This document shows positions 19,231-30,284 of a DNA stretch of 64,000 bases, piece by piece (the first letter of the stretch is position 1; each line of letters opens with the position of its first letter). A program made the position numbers and the translations under genes. The notes beneath the pieces were generated by a model. That model had not been told where the DNA came from. It worked only from the letters and a program-made list of their open reading frames with translations, and did no database searches. The stretch covers positions 2,368,001 through 2,432,000 of the forward strand of contig NC_015677.1 in assembly GCF_000215705.1 (NCBI RefSeq), read 5' to 3'. Source of the stretch: Ramlibacter tataouinensis TTB310 (GTDB lineage Bacteria; Pseudomonadota; Gammaproteobacteria; Burkholderiales; Burkholderiaceae_C).

Positions 19231-20291
19231 TGGCCCCTGCTCCCATCGAGACCGATGCCGTCATCGTGGGCGCGGGCCCGGTCGGCCTGTTCCAGGTCTT
19301 CGAGCTGGGCCTGCTGGAAATCAAGGCCCATGTGATCGACTCGCTGGCCTACCCCGGCGGCCAGCCCGTCGAGCTCTATCCCGACAAGCCGATCTACGAC
19401 ATCCCGGCCATTCCGGTGTGCACCGGCCGGCAGCTCACCGACGCGCTGCTCAAGCAGATCAAGCCCTTCGGCGCCACCTTCCACCTGGGCCAGACCGTGA
19501 CCACGGTGCGCCGGCAGGACGACGGCCGTTTCTTCGTCGAGACCGGCAAGGGCACACAGTTCCTGGCCAAGACGATCTTCATCGCTGCCGGCGTGGGCGC
19601 CTTCGAGCCGCGCACGCTCAAGGTGGACGGCCTGGACAGGTTCGACGGCACGCAGCTGTTCTACCGGGTCGGGAACCCGGCCGACTTCGCCGGCAGGCAC
19701 CTGGTGATCGTGGGCGGCGGCGACTCGGCGCTGGACTGGGCGCTGAACTTCGCCGCGGAAGGCTCGAACCGGGCCGCGAGCGTGACCCTCATCCACCGCC
19801 GCGACGTCCTCCAGGCGGCGCCGGCCTCGGTGGCCAGGATGCGGGAGCTGTGCGACGCCCGCGAGATGCGGTTCATCGTGGGCCAGGTCACCGGCTACGA
19901 GGAGAAGGACGGCCGCCTGACCGGCGCCAAGGTCACCGGCCCGGACGGCGTGACGCGCGTGGTGCCGCTGGACATGCTGCTGGTGTTCTTCGGCCTGTCG
20001 CCCAAGCTGGGCCTCATCGCCGACTGGAGCCTGGAGATCGAGCGCAAGCAGCTGGTGGTGGACACGGAAAAGTTCTCCACCAGCATCCCCGGCATCTTCG
20101 CCGTGGGGGACATCAACACCTATCCCGGCAAGAAGAAACTGATCCTGTCGGGCTTCCACGAGTGCGCCCTGGCCGCCTTCGGCGCCGCGCCCATCATCTT
20201 CCCCGAGAAGGGCAAGATCCCGCTGCAGTACACCACCACCTCGACCAGGCTGCACAAGGTGCTGGGGGTGGAGTCGCCGGTGTTCGATTAG
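19230..20291 (+). CDS. Ferredoxin/flavodoxin-NADP+ reductase, thioredoxin-reductase-like type
   Basis: 353 aa. Two-dinucleotide-domain flavoprotein: FAD site [17 protein letters not shown] near residues 10-28 and NADPH site [14 protein letters not shown] near residue 160. It lacks the CxxC of thioredoxin reductase, the mark of the FNR subfamily also found in Bacillus YumC. It passes electrons from NADPH to ferredoxin. The start overlaps the fdxA stop (TGATG). The C-terminal end overlaps the convergent thiG stop by 4 bp. Confidence 0.93.
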
Positions 20292-21076
20292 AGAACGAAC
20301 GGCCGGCCGGTGACCGGCGTGGTGGCCACCGCCATCTCCTGCTTGGCCATGATGCCGGCCTCCCAGGCCAGGCGGCCGCTTTCGATGCCCAGCTTGAACG
20401 CGCGTGCCATGGTCACCGGGTCGTGCGCCAGCGCCACGGCGGAATTGACCAGCACCGCGTCGAAGCCCAGCTCCATGGCCTGCACCGCGTCGCGCGGCGA
20501 GCCGATGCCCGCGTCCACCACCAGCGGCACGTCGGGCAGGCGCGCGCGCAGGGTGCGCAGCGCCGTGGGATTGAGCAGCCCCTGGCCCGAGCCGATGGGC
20601 GCGCCCCAGGGCATGAGGATGCGGCAGCCGGCATCCAGCAGCCGCTGGCAGGTGACCAGGTCGTCGGTGCAGTAGGGGAACACCTCGAAGCCGTCCCGGG
20701 TCAGCTCCCGGGCCGCCTCCACCAGTTCCCAGGGGTCGGGCTGCAGCGTGTACTCGTCGCCCACCACCTCCAGCTTGATCCAGTGGGTGCCGAACACCTC
20801 GCGCGCCATCTGCGCCAGAGTGACCGCCTCGCGCGCCGTGGTGCAGCCGGCGGTGTTGGGCAGCAGGCGTGCACCGGTCTCGCGGATGAAGCCGTAGAAG
20901 GCGTCGCCGCCCGTGCTGCCGGCCGAGAGCTGGCGCCGCAGGCCGACGGTGATGACCTGGGTGCCGGAGGCCTGCACCGCCTCGCGCAGCACCTGCGGAG
21001 AGGGATAGCTGGCGGTGCCCAGGAAGAAGCGGCTTTGCAGCTCGACGCCGCCGATGTGGAAGCCCATGGTGTTCAT
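20288..21076 (-). CDS. thiG: Thiazole synthase ThiG
   Basis: 262 aa. It forms the thiazole phosphate ring from deoxyxylulose 5-phosphate, dehydroglycine and ThiS-thiocarboxylate. The TIM-barrel motifs include [20 protein letters not shown] with the Schiff-base lysine, and [30 protein letters not shown] at the phosphate site (quoted in pieces from about residues 188-216). Last gene of the riboswitch-led operon. Its ATG overlaps the thiS stop by 4 bp. Full length and cytoplasmic. Confidence 0.96.
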
Positions 21077-21276
21077 CCTCCGGTGATGGGTTCGAAGGTC
21101 ATGACGGCGTCGCCGTCGCGCAGCACGACCTCGGGCCGGCGCGCGCGCGGCACGAAGTCGCCGTTGACGGCAGTGGCCAGCGCGGCCGGCGCCTCGGGCA
21201 GCGAGGCGATCAGGCTCGCCAGCGTCGCGCCGTCCTCCAGCGGGACGCGTTCGTGGTTCAGGGTGATGGCGATCAA
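21073..21276 (-). CDS. thiS: Sulfur carrier protein ThiS
   Basis: 67 aa. A ubiquitin-like sulfur carrier ending in the required Gly-Gly (EPITGG), which is adenylated and thiocarboxylated before giving sulfur to ThiG. It also has VNGDFVPR and [10 protein letters not shown], typical of the fold. It overlaps thiO upstream and thiG downstream by 4 bp each. No thiF is present in the operon, so the adenylating enzyme must be encoded elsewhere. Confidence 0.95.
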
Positions 21277-22304
21277 GCGAAGGACTCCATGGCGGTCTCC
21301 ACCAGGCCCGGCGCGATCAGCCAGCCGTGGCGGAACAGGCCGTTGATGCGCACCAGGCCGGGCGCCAGCTCCAGGCCGGGCTGGTTGTCGGGCAAGGCAG
21401 GACGAAGGTTACTCTCGGTGTGCACGATGCGGGCCTCGGCCAGCGCGGGCACGATGCTGTGGGCGGCGGCCAGCAGCTCGACGGTGGAGCGCAGCGACAC
21501 CGGTGAGCGGTCCTCGCTCTCGATCTCGCTGGCGCCCACCACCACCAGGTCGGGCGCGCGCGGCACCAGGTAGACGCGGTGCCGCGCGTGCAGCAGCCGC
21601 ACCGGCCGGCCCAGCCCCACGCCCGGGGCCTGCAGCCAGAAGATCTCGCCGCGCACGCCGCGCACCGGCAGCTGCGGCCGCGCGCCCAGGCCGCGCACGT
21701 CGATGGCGCAGTCGAAGGAGCGCCACTGCCCGGCGATGCGCAGCCGGCCCGGCTCCACCGCCTCGACCGGGGTGTCCCAGTGCCAATGAGCGTCCGCAGC
21801 GCCTGCCGCCAGCGCCTCCATGGCCTGCACGGCGTGGATCTGGCCCTCCTGGGGCAGCAGCCAGGCCTGCACGCCCGGGCGCAGCGCCGGCTCCAGGCCG
21901 GCCAGCTGCGCCGCACTGAGCGGCTGCGGCGCCTGGCCCGCCGGCGCCTTGCGCGCCAGCAGGTCCAGCAGGCGACGCGCGGCGCCCGTGTCTTCCCGGT
22001 GCGCCACCAGCAGGCTGCCCTGCTGGCGGAATTCCACCGGCAGCGGCAGCTCGCCGATGATCTGCGGCCACAGCTGCAAGGAGCGCAGGCCCCACCGCAG
22101 CACGCGCTCGTCGGCGGTCTCCAGCTCGGCCAGCGGGCTGAGCATGCCGGCCGCGGTCCAGCCGGCGGCGCCGCGTGCCTGCGCCGAGCGCGCCGGGTCG
22201 TGGACGTGGACCTCGTGGCCTTCGCGCAGCAGGCGCACGGCCAGCAGGCGGCCCAGCAGCCCCGCGCCGGCGATGCCGATGCGAAGACGCGCGGACTTGG
22301 TCAT
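21273..22304 (-). CDS. thiO: Glycine oxidase ThiO
   Basis: 343 aa. FAD-dependent oxidase making dehydroglycine for ThiG. The N-terminus carries the dinucleotide motif [20 protein letters not shown], and the C-terminal part contains [13 protein letters not shown] and [13 protein letters not shown], typical of ThiO and D-amino-acid oxidases. Presence of ThiO rather than ThiH implies oxygen-dependent thiazole synthesis. Overlaps thiE and thiS by 4 bp each. Confidence 0.93.
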
Positions 22305-23344
22305 GCGGCGGGCTCCAGGGTCGGGTGCGGCCAGGCCGGCGCCAGGCCATCACGCTCCTGGCGGCCGAGCTCGAAGGCCTCCTTCAGCGCCGGCACGGTT
22401 TGGCGGGGGTCGGGCCACAGCCCGCGCAGCACGCACACGCCGTCGGCGCCGCTGCGCGCAGCCGAGCGCACCTGCCTGGGCGTAAGGATGCCGCCGATGG
22501 CCACCACTGGCCGGCCGGCGGCCCGGCACCACCAGGCCAGGTTGTCCAGGCCCTGCGGGCGCCAGGGCATGTCCTTGGTGACGGTGGGCCAGACCGGTCC
22601 GCAGGCCACGTAGCGCGGCGCCAGGCCGATGGCGCAGCACAGCTCCCACACGGCATGCGAGCTCACGCCCAGCTGCAGGCCGGTGGCGCGCAAGGCGGCG
22701 CGGCCCTCGTCACTCAGCGCGGCCAGGTCCTCCTGGCCGAGGTGCACCGCCTGCGCCCCCAGCTCGGCGGCCAGGCGCCAGTGGTCATTGACGAACAGCG
22801 TCGCGCCCGCGGCCCGCGTGGCGGCGATGCCCTCGCGCAGCTGCGCGCGCAGGCCGGCCTGCCAGGCCGCGTCGGCATCGCCGGGCTGCTTGATGCGCAG
22901 CTGCACGGTAGCTATGCCCGCCGCCAGGACCTGGCGCAAGGCAGGCACGCTGTCCACGATGGCGTAGAGCCCGAGCGGCGCAGGGACCGCGGCGGGCGGC
23001 GCGACAGCCGCAGGTGGCCATGCATCCCAGGACAACAGCGGCAACCGCAGCGGATCGCTGCCCGCCAGGGCCAGCAGCACCGCGTCGGCCGCGACGAAGC
23101 CCTGCCCCCGGGCGCCGTCCCACGCGGCCGCGAGTTCGCCGGCCGCAAGGTTGGAGCGGCCCCGCACCCAGCCGGTGGCATGCACGCTGTCCAGCCAGTG
23201 CAGGTCCTGCCCGGGACCGCCGTACATCAGCACGGCCGCTGCGCCACGCTCCCGCAGGCCGCGCGACGTTGCCGGCCACGTGTCCTGGTTGGCCTGGCCC
23301 GCCAGCTCGACCCGGCATTCCTGCCTTCGCATCGTGTTGCTCAT
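22301..23344 (-). CDS. thiE: Thiamine-phosphate synthase ThiE with an N-terminal ThiD-like remnant
   Basis: 347 aa, about 130 longer than ordinary ThiE. The C-terminal part (about 125-335) is a normal ThiE, joining HMP-PP and thiazole-P: NDHWRLAAELGAQAVHLGQEDL (in pieces), GPVWPTVTKDM, and VVAIGGI. The first about 120 residues resemble the C-terminal part of ThiD kinases (VLMYGGPGQDLHWLDSV..., WDGARGQGFVAADAVLLA), but the GTGC anion-hole motif is lost. A complete ThiD is encoded upstream in the same operon, so this part is probably a non-catalytic remnant. The ATG at 23344 overlaps the SDR stop by 4 bp. Confidence 0.9.
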   Translation of the reverse strand: MSNTMRRQECRVELAGQANQDTWPATSRGLRERGAAAVLMYGGPGQDLHWLDSVHATGWVRGRSNLAAGELAAAWDGARGQGFVAADAVLLALAGSDPLRLPLLSWDAWPPAAVAPPAAVPAPLGLYAIVDSVPALRQVLAAGIATVQLRIKQPGDADAAWQAGLRAQLREGIAATRAAGATLFVNDHWRLAAELGAQAVHLGQEDLAALSDEGRAALRATGLQLGVSSHAVWELCCAIGLAPRYVACGPVWPTVTKDMPWRPQGLDNLAWWCRAAGRPVVAIGGILTPRQVRSAARSGADGVCVLRGLWPDPRQTVPALKEAFELGRQERDGLAPAWPHPTLEPAA

Positions 23345-24123
23345 CGCATCACCCTCCCGCCGTCGACCAGCAGCACCTGGCCGGTGATGAAAGCGCCCCA
23401 GCTCGAGGCCAGGAACAGCACCGGCCCGGCCACGTCCTCGGGCCGGGCCAGGCGCCGCAGCGGCGTGGCCGCCATGAGGGCCTCGCGGAACGAGGCGCGC
23501 GTCGCCGAGCTGCCCTGCGTGGGATGCACCAGGCCGGGCGCGACGCAGTTGACGCGCACGCCCAGCGGGCCGACCTCGGCCGCCAGGTGCCGGCTGAAGC
23601 CCACCAGCGCCGCCTTGGCCGTGCCGTAGTCGTGGTAGGGCACCACCGGGTCCTCCACCAGGTCGCTCACCAGGTTGACGATGGCGCCCTGGGCCCGCGC
23701 CTGCAGGTGCGGCAGCGCCGCGCGGCACAGGTGGAAGGCCGCGCCCACCGAGCCCTCGTACTGCCGCAGGTAGTCGGGCCAGGCCAGGCGCTCGAAGGGC
23801 ACGCGCCGCTCCGGGTCGAAGCTGTAGGGCGCGAACGCGTTGTTGACCAGCACGTCCAGGCGGCCGCATTCCTGCACCACCTGCGCCACCAGCGCCTCCG
23901 CCTGGGGTGGCGAGGTGACGTCGGCCTGCAGGGCCAGGGCGTCGCCGCCCTCCTCCCGGCAAGCCCGCACCACGGCCTGCGCGGCCTCGTGGCTGCGCAG
24001 GTAGTTCACCGCCACCGTGGCGCCCTGCCGCGCGAAGGCGCGCGCGATGGCAGCCCCGATGCCACGCGAGGCGCCGGTGACCAGCACCACCTGGCCCGCG
24101 AAATCCATGCCGTGCGTGCCCAT
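23341..24123 (-). CDS. Short-chain dehydrogenase/reductase (FabG-like) in the thiamine operon
   Basis: 260 aa from ATG 24123; a TTG two codons earlier, overlapping the preceding stop, is the alternative. NAD(P)-binding TGASRGIGAA is near residues 16-25, and the catalytic S153, Y166 and K170 (YGTAK) are intact. The usual NNAG reads NNAF. It reduces or oxidises a carbonyl; substrate unknown. Its place between an importer plus LuxE/LuxC-like pair and thiE suggests it takes the aldehyde made by LuxC to an alcohol. A plain fatty-acid 3-ketoacyl reductase is the competing reading. Confidence 0.85.
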   Translation of the reverse strand: MGTHGMDFAGQVVLVTGASRGIGAAIARAFARQGATVAVNYLRSHEAAQAVVRACREEGGDALALQADVTSPPQAEALVAQVVQECGRLDVLVNNAFAPYSFDPERRVPFERLAWPDYLRQYEGSVGAAFHLCRAALPHLQARAQGAIVNLVSDLVEDPVVPYHDYGTAKAALVGFSRHLAAEVGPLGVRVNCVAPGLVHPTQGSSATRASFREALMAATPLRRLARPEDVAGPVLFLASSWGAFITGQVLLVDGGRVMR

Positions 24124-24125
24124 GG

Positions 24126-25115
24126 TCAATGCCCCGGCAGCAGGTCGCCGGCGACGACCTGGGAAATATCGATGGGCCGCTGCACCAGCCCGAGCTGGCG
24201 GTACACGTCGGCGGCCCGCTGCAGGGTGGCCACGTCCAGCGCGCCCAGGCCTTCCCGTCGGGTGCGGTCCGACACCGTCGCGGCGTTGCGCAGCTGGATG
24301 ATCTCCAGCGCCAGCGCCGGGTCGCTGGCGTCGATGGCGCGCAGCGCGGCCAGCCGGGCGGCCTCGGCCGGCTGCGCGATCATCCAGGCCGCGCTGTCGC
24401 GGTAGGCCCGCAGGAAGCGGCGCAGCAGGTCCTTGCGGCGCTGGTAGGTCTCCTCGCGCACCACATACAGGTCGCTGGACACGTTGAGGAAGCGGCCCAC
24501 CTCCATCACGTCCACCTCGCCGATGCCGCGCCGGCGGCCGATCGCCAAGCCGGTGTCGGTGGCCGCGGTCGCATCCACCTGGCCCTGCAGCAGCGGCGCG
24601 AAGTTGAGCAGGCCGGTGACCACCACGGTCACGTCGGCCTCGCTCAGGCCCACCTGGTGCAGCAGCACCTGCAGGTTCTGGCGCGTGCCGCTGGCCAGGC
24701 TGTAGACGCCGATGCGCTTGCCCTTGAGGTCGGCGGGCTGGCGGATGCCGCTGCGCCGCAGCGAGACCACGTTGAACACGTTCTGCGGGTAGATGTCGTA
24801 GATGGCGCGCAGCTTCTCGCCCTTGTCCAGCGCGGCGAAGAACGAGCCGGGGTCGGTGAAGGCCACGTCGGCCTGGCCGCCGAGGAGGTTGCGCACCGCA
24901 TCGCCGCCGCCGGCGCCCGGCACGTACTCCAGCGTGATGCCCTGGGCGCGGTAGAAGCCCTTGTCCGCATCCACCAGCAGCGGAACGACTTCGGTGATGG
25001 GCTTGCTCCAGCCGGCCACCACCAGCCTGTCGAGGCGAGCCGGCGCCTGCGCGCGCACCGGCGAGGACAGGCCCGCCATGGCGGCGGCAAGCAGGAGGTG
25101 GCGGCGCAAGGTCAT
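24126..25115 (-). CDS. ABC transporter substrate-binding protein, NMT1/THI5-like (ThiY type)
   Basis: 329 aa. A signal peptide (MTLRRHLLLAAAMAGLSSPV, then RAQA) directs it to the periplasm. The mature part shows NMT1/THI5-family features: LLVDADKGFYRAQGITLEYV, GGGDAVRNLLGGQADVAFTD, and LKGKRIGVYSLASGTRQNLQ. Relatives bind formylated or free thiamine pyrimidines (ThiY), or sulfonates and nitrate (SsuA, NrtA). The riboswitch-led operon favours a thiamine-related ligand, which the sequence cannot name. Separated from the permease gene by 22 bp, the widest gap in the operon. Confidence 0.88.
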   Translation of the reverse strand: MTLRRHLLLAAAMAGLSSPVRAQAPARLDRLVVAGWSKPITEVVPLLVDADKGFYRAQGITLEYVPGAGGGDAVRNLLGGQADVAFTDPGSFFAALDKGEKLRAIYDIYPQNVFNVVSLRRSGIRQPADLKGKRIGVYSLASGTRQNLQVLLHQVGLSEADVTVVVTGLLNFAPLLQGQVDATAATDTGLAIGRRRGIGEVDVMEVGRFLNVSSDLYVVREETYQRRKDLLRRFLRAYRDSAAWMIAQPAEAARLAALRAIDASDPALALEIIQLRNAATVSDRTRREGLGALDVATLQRAADVYRQLGLVQRPIDISQVVAGDLLPGH

Positions 25116-25137
25116 GGGAGGATCCTTCTTCTCTGGC

Positions 25138-25896
25138 TCAAAACGATGCGTAGGCGCGCAGCAGGCGGCGCTCCAGCCACAGGGTGAGCTGGTAGGCCAG
25201 CAGCCCCAGCAGCGCGACCAGCACCAGCACGGCGAACATCAGCGGCGTGTCCATGCTGCCCTGGGCCGCGATGATCAGCGCGCCCAGGCCCTGGCTGGCG
25301 CCGATGAACTCGCCGACCACCGCGCCCACCAGGGCCAGCACGACCGCGATGCGCAGGCCCGCCAGGATGGCCGGCAGACCGCTGGGGAGCTTGAGCCGCC
25401 ACAGGGTCTGGACCCGGCTGGCGCCCAGCATGCGGAACAGCTCCAGCCGCTCGGGACGCACCTGCGACAGGCCGGTCAGCGTGTTCTCCATCAGCGGGAA
25501 GAAGCAGATCAGCGCGGTGATGACCACCGTGGGGACCAGGCCGAAGCCGAACCAGACGATGAACAGCGGCATCAGCGCGAGCTTGGGGACCACCTGGCTG
25601 ACCACCAGGTAGGGCATGAGCAGCCGGCGCAGCGGCGCCACCTCGGCCAGCAGCGCGCCCGCGGCGAAGCCGAAGGCGCCGCCCAGGGCCAGCCCCAGCA
25701 GCAGCTCGGCGCCGGTGGCGCGGATGTGCGGCCAGAAGAAGCCGCTGGCCAGGCCCTTCCACAGCGATGCGGCGACCGCACCCGGCGCTGGCAGCACCAG
25801 GGCCGACAGCCCGAGGCCGACGGCGCAGGCCTGCCAGAGAGCCAACAGTGACAGCAGCAGCGCCAGGCTGCCGGCCGCGGCGCGCCAGGACGTCAT
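25138..25896 (-). CDS. ABC transporter permease of the thiamine operon
   Basis: 252 aa. About six hydrophobic segments, and the permease loop FRMLGASRVQTLWRLKLPSGLP near residues 155-178 (quoted in parts), place it in the SsuC/TauC/ThiX class of BPD permeases. It forms the channel for the binding protein encoded just downstream. The ATG at 25896 overlaps the ATPase stop by 4 bp. An in-frame extension far upstream is only the ATPase gene read in another frame. Confidence 0.9.
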   Translation of the reverse strand: MTSWRAAAGSLALLLSLLALWQACAVGLGLSALVLPAPGAVAASLWKGLASGFFWPHIRATGAELLLGLALGGAFGFAAGALLAEVAPLRRLLMPYLVVSQVVPKLALMPLFIVWFGFGLVPTVVITALICFFPLMENTLTGLSQVRPERLELFRMLGASRVQTLWRLKLPSGLPAILAGLRIAVVLALVGAVVGEFIGASQGLGALIIAAQGSMDTPLMFAVLVLVALLGLLAYQLTLWLERRLLRAYASF

Positions 25897-26624
25897 GCGC
25901 TCACCTCCAGGCCGAGCGCCTCGCGCACCTGGGCGCAGCCGGCACCGAACGCGGGCGTGTCGCGGGTGCGGGCCGCCGGCGGCACCGTGAACGAATGCGA
26001 CAGGCGCCCGCCCGCCATCACCGACACCCGGTCGCCCAGGAACACCGCCTCGGCGATGTCGTGCGTCACGAACAGCACCGTCGTGCCGTGCTCGCGCGCC
26101 AGGCCCAGCAGGTCGCGCTGCAGCTCCTCGCGCGTGATCGCGTCCAGGGCGGCGAAGGGCTCGTCCAGCAGCAGCAGCGGCGGTTGCGGCAGCAGGGCCC
26201 GCGCCAGCGCCACCCGGCTCTGCTGGCCACCCGAGAGCTGGCCCGGGCGGTGCATGGCGCGGTCCGCGAGCCCGAGCCGGGCCAGCAGCGCATCGGCGCG
26301 CGCCATGTCCTGGGCCGTGGGACGGCGCTTCAGGGACACCGGCAGCAGCACGTTGTCGCGTGCGCTCAACCAGTCCAGCAACGTCGGCGCCTGGAACACG
26401 AAGCCGGTGCGTTCGTGGGCCGCGGTCGCCGGCCCGCCCCACAGCACCTGGCCGCGCGTGGGCGCGAGCAGCCCGGCGGCCAGCTTCAGCAGCGTGGTCT
26501 TGCCGCAGCCGCTGCGGCCCACCAGGCAATGGATGTCTCCCGCCGCCAGCGCCAGCTCCACACCCTCCAGCACCGGCCGGCCGGGATGGGCGAACGACAC
26601 GCCGGCCAGGCGCAGGAAAGTCAT
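25893..26624 (-). CDS. ABC transporter ATP-binding protein of the thiamine operon
   Basis: 243 aa. Walker A GRSGCGKTT, Q-loop VFQAPTLLDWLSARDN, signature LSGGQQSR, Walker B LLLLDEP and switch histidine VTHDIAEA are complete. The closest class is the SsuB/TauB/ThiZ family of small-molecule importers. It energises the permease and NMT1-type binding protein next to it. The start at 26624 overlaps the luxC-like stop by 4 bp, which ties uptake to the acid-reducing genes. Confidence 0.92.
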   Translation of the reverse strand: MTFLRLAGVSFAHPGRPVLEGVELALAAGDIHCLVGRSGCGKTTLLKLAAGLLAPTRGQVLWGGPATAAHERTGFVFQAPTLLDWLSARDNVLLPVSLKRRPTAQDMARADALLARLGLADRAMHRPGQLSGGQQSRVALARALLPQPPLLLLDEPFAALDAITREELQRDLLGLAREHGTTVLFVTHDIAEAVFLGDRVSVMAGGRLSHSFTVPPAARTRDTPAFGAGCAQVREALGLEVSA

Positions 26625-28090
26625 TCCCCGCCCTCCTGGGCATACGGCGCCAGCCGGTCGGCGGCCTGCTCGGCGGCCTGCTCGATCTCGACCACGTGCA
26701 CCAGGTCCGCCAGGTTGAAGCGGCCATCGTGGTGCCAGCCGGCCTCGGGCCGCGTCATGGCCCCCAGGGGCGCGATGCGCGTGACGCCCACGCCGCCCAG
26801 CAGCTCCGCCAGGCGGTACAGGCGCTCGGGCGTGGTGGCCAGGCCCACGGTCTGCAGGAAAGGCGATTGCGGCTCCAGCAGCGGCGCCACGTCCTCCAGG
26901 GCGTCCACGGCGCACACCAGCACGCAGCGGTGGCCGGCCGTGGGGGCGACGGGCCGCATCTCGTCGCTGAAAGCCACCGACCACTGCGAAGCATCGTCCC
27001 CCAGCAGCTCGCCGGCGGGACCCAGCAGCTGCCACTCGGCGGACTGGCGCCAGGCGGCGACGGACGCCGACTCCTCCAGCGTCAGCCGGCGGCGCGGATG
27101 GCGCCGCTGCAGCTGGGACAGCTCGCCCGACAGGTAACGCGCGAAGGCGCGCGGCTTGATGGCGCCGCCCCGCTCCACGTACAGCCGGTGCGGCGAGTAG
27201 CAGCCCTGCTGCTCGTGGCGCACCAGGTCCCGCGCGGCGCGGCGCGCGGCGGCCGGCCCGCGCTGGCTGTCCAGTGCCTCGCGCCCGACCAGGGCCAAGC
27301 CCAGCTTGTGGCCATAGCCCAGGAAGCGCGTGCTGGCCGGCAGCTGGTTGCGCAGCTGCACCAGGGTGTCGTTGCCGCCGTAGGCGAGCACCGTGTCGGC
27401 CTCCTGGGCCAGCACCGTGCCCGCCCCGCCGTCGCCCCCCTTCCACCACACGATGGCCAGGCAGTCGGCCAGGGCGGGCGCCACCTCGGCCAGCAGTTGC
27501 GCGAACAGGCTGGCGAACACCGGTTCGGCGCTGGGCAGCTTGCCGATGTTGCCCGCCTTGACCAGCAGGCCGCAGGCCAGGCTCCACAGCGGCAGGCCGG
27601 GCACGTTGCCGGCCCAATGGTGCGCCAGCAGCGAAGGGCCGAAGGCCCGGATCGCGCCGCCCTTGACCGCCGGCTGGAAGCCGTCCAGCACCTTGGGGTT
27701 GGCGAAGTCCTGCGCCACGAAGCGATGCAGCTGCGGCGCGCGGAAGGTCTGCAGGTAGCTGGACAATCCCAGCCGCAGCAGCTCGGGGTCGTCGCCGGTG
27801 ACCACCGGCAGCAGATCGTCCAGCTGCCGGCGCACGGGGTCGGCGGCATCGAGCAGGCGGGCGACGACGCGATCCAGCACCTCCACGATCTGCGTCACGG
27901 GCAGCGGGCGCAGGCGCTCGCGCGCCGCCTGGCGCACCTGCCGGGCCAGCGCGCGCATCTGCGCCTCGGTGAGCAGCGGCACCTCGACCTCGAGCCGGCG
28001 GCCGTGCGCCTCGAACGGCAGCAGCTGCCACTGCACCGCATCGGCCGCTCCTGGCGGCAGGTAGCCGGCCCGCAGGCGCGCGCCGTTCAT
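26621..28090 (-). CDS. luxC: LuxC-like acyl reductase in the thiamine operon
   Basis: 489 aa, the same size as LuxC of luminous bacteria (about 480). LuxC takes an acyl group onto a cysteine and reduces it to an aldehyde with NADPH. The probable catalytic cysteine is C297 in EQQGCYSPHRLYVE; GNVPGLPLWSLACGLLVKAG (161-180) and the C-terminal HHDGRFNLADLVHVVEIE are also family-like. The substrate acyl group is unknown. It overlaps its activating partner (LuxE-like) upstream and the ABC ATPase downstream by 4 bp. No luxA, luxB or luxD is near, so luminescence is not suggested. Confidence 0.88.
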   Translation of the reverse strand: MNGARLRAGYLPPGAADAVQWQLLPFEAHGRRLEVEVPLLTEAQMRALARQVRQAARERLRPLPVTQIVEVLDRVVARLLDAADPVRRQLDDLLPVVTGDDPELLRLGLSSYLQTFRAPQLHRFVAQDFANPKVLDGFQPAVKGGAIRAFGPSLLAHHWAGNVPGLPLWSLACGLLVKAGNIGKLPSAEPVFASLFAQLLAEVAPALADCLAIVWWKGGDGGAGTVLAQEADTVLAYGGNDTLVQLRNQLPASTRFLGYGHKLGLALVGREALDSQRGPAAARRAARDLVRHEQQGCYSPHRLYVERGGAIKPRAFARYLSGELSQLQRRHPRRRLTLEESASVAAWRQSAEWQLLGPAGELLGDDASQWSVAFSDEMRPVAPTAGHRCVLVCAVDALEDVAPLLEPQSPFLQTVGLATTPERLYRLAELLGGVGVTRIAPLGAMTRPEAGWHHDGRFNLADLVHVVEIEQAAEQAADRLAPYAQEGGE

Positions 28091-29187
28091 GGCCGGGCCG
28101 CCTCCAGGAAGGCCTGCACCGCCAGCGAGCAGCCCTTGGCCTCGGCCCCCTCGGCCCGGCCGAGGAGCAGGAAGCCGCCCGGCACGGCGACGCCCACGTC
28201 CTCGGTCAGGATCGTGGTGGCCGAGTTGAAATTGGCCAGGTCGCAGTGGGCCAGCACGCCGCGCTCGCCCGGCGCGACCTCGCGGCCGGTGAGCGGGTCC
28301 AGCACCCGGGTGCGGATCCAGTGCGGCCCCGACTTGACCGAAGGGACCGCCGCATTGCCATCGTCGTACAGCTGCGAGCTGAGCTCGGTCATGCCGTACA
28401 TGTTGATGCAGCGCGCCCGCGGCACGCCGAACGCCTGCGCCAGGCCGTCGTAGAACTCGTCCAGCGGCACCTCGCGCGCCTGCTGCTTGTAGCCGCCGGT
28501 GTCCAGGATGCGGCTGCCGGCCGGCAGCGTGAACGCGATACCGCGCTCGCGCAGCGCGTCCAGCAGGTGCACGAAGCTGAAGCTGGCGCCCATGAGCGCG
28601 ATGGCTTCGCCGGCGGCGACGGCGTCCCCCAGCGCCCGGCACACGCCTTCGACGTCCAGCCCGCCCGCGGCGCTCACGTAGGCGCGGCTACCGGGCGCGC
28701 CGAAGCTGCGGCTGGCCAGCGACAGGTAGCGCGCCAGCGAGGAATTGGGCAGTTCGCCTTCGTCGGGGAACAGCGTCGCCATGCGCATGCGCGGCGCCCC
28801 CTGCATGAAGCGGCGCGCGAAGTTGCGGCGCATGGACAGGTCCCACACGGCGATGACGGGATGGTGGTTGCGGCCCCGCACCTCGCCGCGCGTGGTCCCG
28901 CTGGTCATGAAGACGCGCTCGCACTCGTCGGGCGGCACGCAGCTGAGCGTGGAGTCCTTGAAGGCGCTGATCGGTACCGGCGGGATGTCGCGCCAGCCCG
29001 CCAGCCGGCGCGGCGTGAGGCCGCGGCGCTGGCAGAAGCGCCGGTACGGCTCGTCGTGGGTGTACTGCAGCGTGAACAGCTGCGCCGCCACCTCGTCGAA
29101 CTCGGCGTCGGTGCAGCCGTCCTGGGCCAGGAAGGCCAGCAGCCGCTCGATGGCTTGCTGCAGCTCGGGGAGTGCGGAACCCGTCAT
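28087..29187 (-). CDS. luxE: LuxE-like acyl-protein synthetase in the thiamine operon
   Basis: 366 aa (LuxE about 370-380). LuxE activates a carboxylic acid with ATP as acyl-AMP, moves it to its own C-terminal cysteine and hands it to LuxC. The nucleotide motif TSGTTRG is at residues 95-101, MYGMTELSSQLYD is a typical later adenylation motif, and a cysteine 14 residues from the end (C353, in AKGCSLAVQ) sits where the acylated cysteine of LuxE is. Second gene of the TPP-riboswitch operon, overlapping thiD by 4 bp. Substrate unknown; a carboxylated thiamine precursor is my inference. Confidence 0.88.
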   Translation of the reverse strand: MTGSALPELQQAIERLLAFLAQDGCTDAEFDEVAAQLFTLQYTHDEPYRRFCQRRGLTPRRLAGWRDIPPVPISAFKDSTLSCVPPDECERVFMTSGTTRGEVRGRNHHPVIAVWDLSMRRNFARRFMQGAPRMRMATLFPDEGELPNSSLARYLSLASRSFGAPGSRAYVSAAGGLDVEGVCRALGDAVAAGEAIALMGASFSFVHLLDALRERGIAFTLPAGSRILDTGGYKQQAREVPLDEFYDGLAQAFGVPRARCINMYGMTELSSQLYDDGNAAVPSVKSGPHWIRTRVLDPLTGREVAPGERGVLAHCDLANFNSATTILTEDVGVAVPGGFLLLGRAEGAEAKGCSLAVQAFLEAARP

Positions 29188-30044
29188 GGCAATGGGAGCA
29201 GCCGCATGGGCTGCGGCGCATAGGAATGGTTCAGCGGCCCGCTGCCCGCGCCGGTGCGCACCGCAGCGCCGGCCCGCAGCGCCCCGCGGACGTAGTCGCG
29301 GGCCTGCTGCACGGCGTCGGGCAGCGCGTGGCCGAGTGCGAGCTGGGCCGCGATGGCGCTGGACAGGGTGCAGCCGGTGCCGTGGGTATTGGCCGTGGCG
29401 ATGCGCGCGCCACGCAGCCACAGCGGCTGCATGGCCTGGTCCAGCAGCAGGTCGCTGACGCTGTCGCCGGCCAGGTGGCCGCCCTTGAGCAGCACGGCCT
29501 GCGCGCCCATGGCGATCATCCGGCGGGCGGCGGCTTCCATCTCGTCCTCGTCGCGCACGGGGTGCCCGGCCAGCAGCGCCGCCTCGTCCAGGTTGGGCGT
29601 GACCAGCACGGCGCGGGGGAACAGTTCGCGCACCAGCGAGGCCACCGCCGCCGGGTCGATCAGCCTGGCGCCGCTGGTGGCCACCATGACCGGATCGAGC
29701 ACCACCGGCCGCAGGCGGTGGCGGTCGACCGCGGCGGCCACCGCCCCGATCGTCGCCGCGGAATGCAGCATGCCGATCTTGACCGCGTCCACGCCGATGT
29801 CCTCGACCACGGCGTCGATCTGGTCGGCCAGCACGTCCAGCGGCACCGCATGGATGGAGCGCACGCCCACCGTGTTCTGCGCGGTCAGCGCGGTGATCGC
29901 CGTCATGCCGAAGCAGCCCAGGGCGGCGATGGCCTTGAGGTCGGCCTGGATCCCGGCGCCACCGCCGGAATCGGAGCCGGCGATGGCCAGCACGCGCGGG
30001 TAGCGCGAGGCGGCAGCAACAGGAGCGGTAGCGGTGGGAGCCAT
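29184..30044 (-). CDS. thiD: Hydroxymethylpyrimidine (phosphate) kinase ThiD
   Basis: 286 aa. It phosphorylates HMP and HMP-P to HMP-PP. AGSDSGGGAGIQADLK is at residues 22-37, DPVMVATSG in the middle, and the anion-hole motif THGTGCTLSSAIAA near residue 225 is intact. First gene of the operon, directly behind the TPP riboswitch. The ribosome site (AAGGA) lies inside a hairpin at 30050-30078, so translation of thiD is probably what the riboswitch controls. Reads as fully functional, unlike the remnant fused to ThiE. Confidence 0.96.
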   Translation of the reverse strand: MAPTATAPVAAASRYPRVLAIAGSDSGGGAGIQADLKAIAALGCFGMTAITALTAQNTVGVRSIHAVPLDVLADQIDAVVEDIGVDAVKIGMLHSAATIGAVAAAVDRHRLRPVVLDPVMVATSGARLIDPAAVASLVRELFPRAVLVTPNLDEAALLAGHPVRDEDEMEAAARRMIAMGAQAVLLKGGHLAGDSVSDLLLDQAMQPLWLRGARIATANTHGTGCTLSSAIAAQLALGHALPDAVQQARDYVRGALRAGAAVRTGAGSGPLNHSYAPQPMRLLPLP

Positions 30045-30049
30045 GGACG

Positions 30050-30078
30050 TCCTTCGGGCATGTGCGTGCTCCGAAGGA
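30050..30078 (-). promoter_or_regulatory. Ribosome-site-sequestering hairpin of the TPP riboswitch
   Basis: On the minus strand TCCTTCGG pairs with CCGAAGGA (8-bp stem, 13-nt loop). The 3' arm contains the thiD Shine-Dalgarno AAGGA, five bases before the ATG. This is the expected form of a translational expression platform: ligand binding would favour the hairpin and block initiation. There is no U-run, so it is not a terminator. Confidence 0.7.
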
Positions 30079-30112
30079 ACGGTCCGCCGCGGCCCTGGGC
30101 GGGCTGCGGCAG

Positions 30113-30193
30113 GTGCTCTCCTTACGCCGGTTTGAACCGGTTCAAGTTCACGGGTCTGGATCTCAGCACGCTGGCGCGTACACCCCGGAGCAC
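30113..30193 (-). ncRNA. TPP riboswitch (THI element)
   Basis: On the minus strand the conserved core is present: CTGAGATCCAGACCCGTGAA, followed by CTTGAACCGGTTCAAACCGG and CGTAAGGAG. The ends GTGCTCC and GGAGAGCAC pair as stem P1. It lies 70 bases before thiD, the first of eleven overlapping genes down to thiG. Binding of thiamine pyrophosphate should turn the whole operon down, including the transporter, luxE/luxC-like and SDR genes. Confidence 0.95.
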
Positions 30194-30284
30194 GGGCATT
30201 GTGGCACACCGGTCCGTCGGCCCGGTCTGGAGGACCGCAATGGAACTTTGGTCATGGACGGGCTGGGGGCCCGGAAGATGGGGC

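Follow-up and report, generated by a model that had tools for sequence, protein, structure and literature searches.

A TPP-controlled cassette with a LuxE/LuxC-type carboxylic acid reductase and a short-chain dehydrogenase as a probable route from a pyrimidine carboxylate to hydroxymethylpyrimidine

The 64,000-nucleotide stretch of Ramlibacter tataouinensis TTB310 analysed here (NC_015677.1, positions 2,368,001 to 2,432,000; hereafter the window, whose own numbering is used) carries on its minus strand an eleven-gene operon behind a single thiamin pyrophosphate (TPP) aptamer, in the order thiD-luxE-luxC-ATPase-permease-SBP-SDR-thiE-thiO-thiS-thiG, where SBP is a periplasmic substrate-binding protein and SDR a short-chain dehydrogenase/reductase. 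The Lux-type gene set and its riboswitch recur at 100 or more of the loci studied rather than in this genome only, and with such recurrence the association is more than chance. From comparison of sequences, we consider it very probable that the cassette is a TPP-controlled acid-to-alcohol salvage route that feeds thiamin synthesis; the best explanation overall, which we regard as fairly likely, is a thiamin-regulated pathway that salvages the pyrimidine half of the vitamin. Slightly more cautiously, we propose that the cassette, which is partly plasmid-borne and has as its core a LuxE/LuxC carboxylic acid reductase and an SDR, rebuilds hydroxymethylpyrimidine (HMP) from 4-amino-2-methylpyrimidine-5-carboxylate; we would name this acid as the exact substrate with similar caution.

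A sequence-only reading of the window had described the eleven genes and their order behind one TPP riboswitch, and profile searches confirm them all, together with the aptamer (RF00059, 30102-30197, 55.0 bits against a gathering score of 54.3), which is the sole TPP site at E <= 0.001 in the complete 4.07-Mb, one-contig genome. The genes, all on the minus strand, span 20288-30044 (20288-30197 with the aptamer). The first is thiD, for the HMP/HMP phosphate kinase (29184-30044, ATG at 30044; TIGR00097, 316.9 bits against a cut-off of 204.95), followed by a luxE-like acyl-adenylate/acyl-protein synthetase gene (28087-29187; PF04443, 82.5 bits) and a luxC-like acyl reductase gene (26621-28090; PF05893, 276.5 bits). 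Next come the ATPase (25893-26624; PF00005) and the binding-protein-dependent permease (25138-25896; PF00528) of an ATP-binding cassette (ABC) importer, its NMT1/THI5-like SBP (24126-25115; PF09084) and the SDR (23341-24129, with a start at TTG 24129 or ATG 24123; PF13561). The operon closes with thiE, for thiamin phosphate synthase (22301-23344; PF02581), thiO, for glycine oxidase (21273-22304; PF01266, with TIGR02352 at 241.7 bits, slightly below its cut-off of 250.8), thiS (21073-21276, TTG start; PF02597) and thiG, for thiazole synthase (20288-21076; PF05690 at genome positions 2388315-2389055, E 1e-101). The 4-bp stop/start overlaps seen earlier at nearly all junctions can be read at nine of ten, two of which (SBP-SDR and thiO-thiS) need TTG starts; the permease-SBP junction is instead a 22-bp gap. 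The N-terminus of ThiE is extended by some 115 residues that match no Pfam family, and its TMP-TENI domain occupies residues 132-308 of 347. As the earlier reading had stated, luxA, luxB and luxD are absent from the operon, to which this check was confined.

The residues proposed to be catalytic proved to be correctly placed: S96-G97-T98 and C353 of LuxE are invariant in 101 of 101 LuxE sequences, and C297 of LuxC in 102 of 102 LuxC sequences, the window included in both cases. By alignment, C353 lies in a GCSL motif common to the LuxE of PDB 7xc6, which the window protein matches at E 5.5e-20; the window LuxC matches the acyl-protein thioester reductase of the same structure at E 4.2e-12, and a fold search with LuxE gave a tie. 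Among 18 cores checked from plasmids and Bacilli, Cys353 of LuxE, Cys297 of LuxC and Tyr168/Lys172 of the SDR are kept in every one, and the SGT motif of LuxE in 17. The cassette thus shares with the lux fatty acid reductase the two protein families and their active cysteines, and ATP- and NADPH-dependent conversion of an acid to an aldehyde may be expected here as well. It differs from that system in being headed by a TPP aptamer, in lacking luxA, luxB and luxD in the operon, in having an SDR where the luciferase would consume the aldehyde, and in its proposed substrate, an aromatic pyrimidine. The cassette proteins also form a clade of their own within the LuxC family: in the LuxC tree, 39 TPP-linked proteins stand apart from 7 unlinked ones with support of 99/96, to be read with caution for long branches. 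A functional two-protein precedent for aromatic acids is GriC/GriD of the grixazone pathway, in which, according to PMC10179220, an aromatic acid with an amino substituent is adenylated by one protein and then reduced to the aldehyde by its partner; adenylation and reduction are divided there as proposed here, although GriC/GriD serve the secondary metabolism of 3-amino-4-hydroxybenzoate.

The earlier reading had proposed a survey of Burkholderiales for Lux homologs near thi genes or TPP riboswitches, and they do recur there; the outcome it had named as a refutation, linkage in a single genome, was not borne out. Among 299 genomes of the family, LuxC gave 34 matches, of which 27 are close (E < 1e-90); the 7 weak ones (E 1e-18 to 1e-25), whose regions were examined in 5 of the 7 genomes, were not counted as cassettes, and genome G093 was counted as a carrier although its locus (L027) is without luxE. 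Contexts were examined for all close matches except the window, 26 in total: luxE-luxC-ATPase-permease-SBP-SDR appear in the same order in 23, and L040 and L043 start in that order before their contigs end. The thi genes adjoin the cassette in just 8 of 25 contexts, and the Rfam gathering score for the TPP aptamer is reached in 13 of 25. A model (R1) built from those 13 family aptamers and that of the window, 14 sequences in all, places a same-strand aptamer upstream of luxE or thiD-luxE in all 25, including 12 outside the training set, at 61.6 bits or more (the window, itself used in training, scores 78.4 bits). An aptamer therefore heads the operon in 25 of the 26 contexts, L027 being the miss. 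No aptamer was found at the five distant LuxC contexts of the family (best 14.0 bits, E 0.11) or at two distant LuxC loci in Bacilli, that is, at none of seven distant loci.

The cassette extends well beyond this family, to Burkholderiales, Azospirillum, Pantoea and Bacilli, and so to Beta-, Alpha- and Gammaproteobacteria as well as Bacilli; the family, GTDB, plasmid and Bacilli locus sets partly overlap. From a GTDB scan with LuxE we took the best 80 of 300 relatives (L061-L140), some of whose genomes are the same as in the family set; these 80 include carriers in Ramlibacter, Variovorax, Polaromonas, Curvibacter, Comamonas, Acidovorax, Delftia, Achromobacter, Bordetella and Thauera, and Neobacillus niacini. 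All six genes are present in 75 of the 80 loci, the remaining 5 stopping at contig edges, and an aptamer is present in 79, the contig of the 80th (L074) beginning within thiD. They share the strand of the cassette and lie 27-252 nt upstream of where thiD (29 loci) or luxE (50 loci) begins in the alignment; only in L128 does thiW intervene. In four Variovorax loci (L091, L094, L096 and L114) some 250 nt separate the aptamer from luxE downstream, more than in most others, and L094 is plasmid-borne.

LuxC relatives occur in 27 of 72,556 plasmid records: 13 from Pantoea, 9 from Azospirillum, and one each from Priestia, Niallia, Pseudomonas, Lactiplantibacillus and Levilactobacillus. Eleven of the 27 were examined by region; R1 finds a TPP aptamer in all 11, and the Rfam gathering score is met in 7 of 8 scanned, the exception being L168. 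A LuxC search of 398 Bacilli genomes gave 13 matches, namely 10 further close ones (L187-L196), that of Neobacillus and the 2 distant ones mentioned above. The aptamer stands at the operon head in all 10 further loci, at the Rfam gathering score in 8; L191 and L196 are weaker R1 matches (29.1 and 23.1 bits). Several of these regions show arrangements of their own. On Pseudomonas silvicola plasmid p1 (L170, 7937-11215), luxE, luxC and sdr behind a TPP aptamer each fall into two tblastn pieces, which suggests frameshifts or sequencing errors. On a 1.44-Mb Niallia plasmid (L169, 5645-5941), two tandem TPP aptamers lie upstream of thiW-NCS2 permease-luxE-luxC-sdr. Divergent, back-to-back TPP aptamers occur at L195 (7957-8259) and L088 (2242-2491); the second leads to thiO-thiS-thiG in L088 and to a PF09819 (YkoE-type) gene in L195.

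Across these loci luxE-luxC-sdr is the constant core, around which the rest of the cassette is modular. The core stands alone on three Pantoea plasmids and in two Bacilli loci (L194 and L195), and the ABC importer is added in most others, including three Azospirillum regions and Priestia; in L190, from Bacilli, the operon reads TPP-thiO...thiG-thiF-luxE-luxC-ABC-sdr. Genome G272, from the genus of the window, has thiD-thiE-thiO-thiS-thiG without the six cassette genes, which implies that the cassette is gained or lost as a block. At five Bacilli loci a xanthine/uracil-type NCS2 permease stands in for the ABC importer: the L. plantarum and L. brevis plasmids (whose proteins are identical), the Niallia megaplasmid, L187 and L188.

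The importer may serve a pyrimidine, the best fold match of the SBP being 3ix1, the ThiY protein that binds N-formyl-4-amino-5-aminomethyl-2-methylpyrimidine (FAMP). In the known salvage of such aminopyrimidines, FAMP is handled by ThiXYZ, YlmB and TenA. That pathway resembles the one proposed here in its TPP-regulated ABC import of a pyrimidine breakdown product of thiamin, its conversion to HMP and the fold of the SBP; it proceeds by amide hydrolysis and deamination, whereas acid reduction is proposed here, and the window genome has no PF03070/TenA match (YlmB was not searched). The SBP shares its fold and Pfam family (PF09084) also with the HMP phosphate synthase THI5, a suicide enzyme; ours, adjoining ABC genes, is predicted to be a binding protein.

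The gene complement of the window genome gives such a supply an obvious use. No thiC was found in it by a search that was positive in 13 of 14 control genomes, and ThiG and ThiL are present; without thiC and with ThiG, the organism should make the thiazole half of thiamin and need the pyrimidine from outside. Searches for ThiM gave nothing above the cut-off of 27 bits, the weak cross-matches scoring 24.6 and 20.8; CytX was not found at E <= 1e-20, and neither was a PnuC-type transporter, ThiBPQ and other thiamin transporters not having been searched. The importer of the operon and its three enzymes LuxE, LuxC and SDR are thus the visible candidates for the outside pyrimidine supply.

The distribution of the cassette in the 299 family genomes follows the same logic. 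It is found in 18 of the 188 genomes with both thiC and thiG, in 8 of the 13 with thiG and no thiC, in 1 of the 94 with neither (the doubtful G093) and in 0 of the 4 with thiC alone; enrichment in the thiC-less, thiG-positive class is significant against the first class (Fisher p 2.3e-5) and the third (3.4e-8). For these counts, we discounted 34 of 235 ThiG matches as cross-matches because their E exceeded 1e-50. Of the 80 GTDB genomes, 47, of unknown completeness, were searched for thiC, and 19 of these lack it: 18 of the 23 in which thiD is joined to the cassette, a group that is mostly one clade, and 1 of the 24 in which it is not. Among the five thiC-less, thiG-positive family genomes without a cassette, four (G272, G001, G029 and G142) have a CytX-like putative HMP transporter, which none of the eight carriers has (chance of no overlap 0.007; 11 of 70 CytX matches, weaker than 1e-50, were left out). 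If we restrict this class to genomes at least 90% complete and at most 5% contaminated, ten remain, six with the cassette and four with CytX. Like the cassette, CytX is TPP-headed in G272, G001 (52.5 bits, slightly below the cut-off) and G029 and would supply pyrimidine to such genomes; it differs in being a single permease that imports HMP itself, with no enzymes, and in this class the two are mutually exclusive. In G198, another genome of the window's genus, which has a PnuC-type transporter and no thiC, thiG or cassette matches, a TPP-headed TonB-dependent receptor (L158, 11744-13873) is likely an outer-membrane thiamin receptor.

Taken together, these observations would fit a pathway in which low TPP allows expression through the riboswitch, provided that these aptamers act like TPP riboswitches of known function. 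The ABC importer, or the NCS2 permease in some Bacilli, would import a pyrimidine in oxidised form, with 4-amino-2-methylpyrimidine-5-carboxylate the likeliest; LuxE would adenylate the acid with ATP, with acyl transfer probably running via Cys353 to Cys297 of LuxC; LuxC would use NAD(P)H to reduce the acyl group to the aldehyde, and the SDR would reduce the aldehyde to HMP. ThiD would then phosphorylate HMP, and ThiE would join it to the thiazole from ThiO, ThiS and ThiG. The sequence-only reading had sketched this salvage of an imported acid, with a pyrimidine favoured, and its non-biochemical parts are supported by TPP control across groups, the lack of ThiC and of a convincing ThiM in the window genome, the enrichment in thiC-less, thiG-positive genomes, the exclusion of CytX, the 3ix1-like fold of the SBP and the NCS2 exchange.

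Several observations weigh against this interpretation. L027 (G093 contig C72, 813-3108, in a genome 55% complete) is a divergent luxC-ATPase pair with no luxE within 0.8 kb upstream and no aptamer; its LuxC, at 38% identity, falls on the TPP-linked side of the tree, on a long branch. The SBP belongs to a broad superfamily: its profile matches binders of taurine and sulfonate as well, and the best match of known structure is 3qsl, which is uncharacterised. Genome counts are without phylogenetic correction, the eight thiC-less, thiG-positive carriers spanning 7 genera, and 18 of the 27 family carriers also have thiC, so that in many hosts the cassette supplements thiC rather than replacing it; there it may be a cheaper, TPP-repressible alternative. 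All CytX matches are under the curated NCBIfam cut-off, CytX is also present in 5 of the 18 thiC-positive carriers, and G131 (87% complete, 6% contaminated) has neither cassette nor CytX, with a PnuC-type gene present. Finally, three Bacilli loci (L128, L169 and L191) have thiW or thiM next to the cassette, an arrangement that a thiazole-acid reading could use.

On that reading, the cassette would reduce 4-methylthiazole-5-acetate, a thiamin breakdown product, to hydroxyethylthiazole for ThiM, and thiW, a predicted thiazole importer, would fit beside it. We think this unlikely, and the hydroxyethylthiazole alternative of the earlier reading is disfavoured with it, because ThiM at E < 1e-50 occurs in only 2 of 26 family carriers (ThiM and TenA were searched in 26 of the 27, G093 left out), the window genome not among them; moreover, a thiazole source would predict the reverse of the enrichment seen where thiC is lost and thiG kept, and the SBP fold is nearest to an aminopyrimidine binder. 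Repair of the whole vitamin, by import of thiamine acetic acid and its reduction to thiamine, seems no more likely, as it leaves unexplained both the ThiD, ThiE and thiazole genes that share the operon in a genome lacking thiC and the mutual exclusion with CytX; NCS2 nucleobase permeases are, besides, poor candidates for a charged thiazolium. A role for the pair on some unrelated acid, fatty or otherwise, with only an incidental place in thiamin operons, is suggested by its homology to 7xc6, yet we hold this very improbable: a TPP aptamer accompanies nearly all close relatives, including stand-alone cassettes without thi genes (the exceptions being L074, at a contig end, and L027), the seven distant LuxC loci have none, and neither Lux protein comes near the NCBIfam cut-off for its lux equivalog (LuxE 69.2 bits against 550, LuxC 65.9 against 750). 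A different pyrimidine acid or conjugate, such as a homologue or an N-substituted pyrimidine-5-carboxylate, would leave the logic unchanged and fits all the pyrimidine-side evidence equally; we give it a low probability too, since the 5-carboxylate yields HMP directly after two reductions and would need no enzyme beyond the luxE-luxC-sdr core, which stands alone on three Pantoea plasmids.

Salvage of the thiamin pyrimidine is itself known, with HMP, 4-amino-5-aminomethyl-2-methylpyrimidine (AmMP) and FAMP as salvageable vitamers according to PMC10881298; our literature search found no report of Lux-type enzymes reducing a carboxylated pyrimidine. If the proposed pathway is correct, carboxylate reduction would be a chemically new branch of thiamin salvage, and a subfamily of LuxC and LuxE proteins now recorded as "acyl-CoA reductase" and "long-chain fatty acid--CoA ligase" would gain a vitamin function. 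Predictions of auxotrophy based on thiC alone would need correcting, and an overlooked environmental thiamin catabolite is predicted: an oxidised thiamin pyrimidine would be exchanged as a genuine vitamer in the communities of soil, plants and fermented foods. For bacteria like TTB310, which make the thiazole and have no ThiC, the cassette would be the sole pyrimidine source so far visible.

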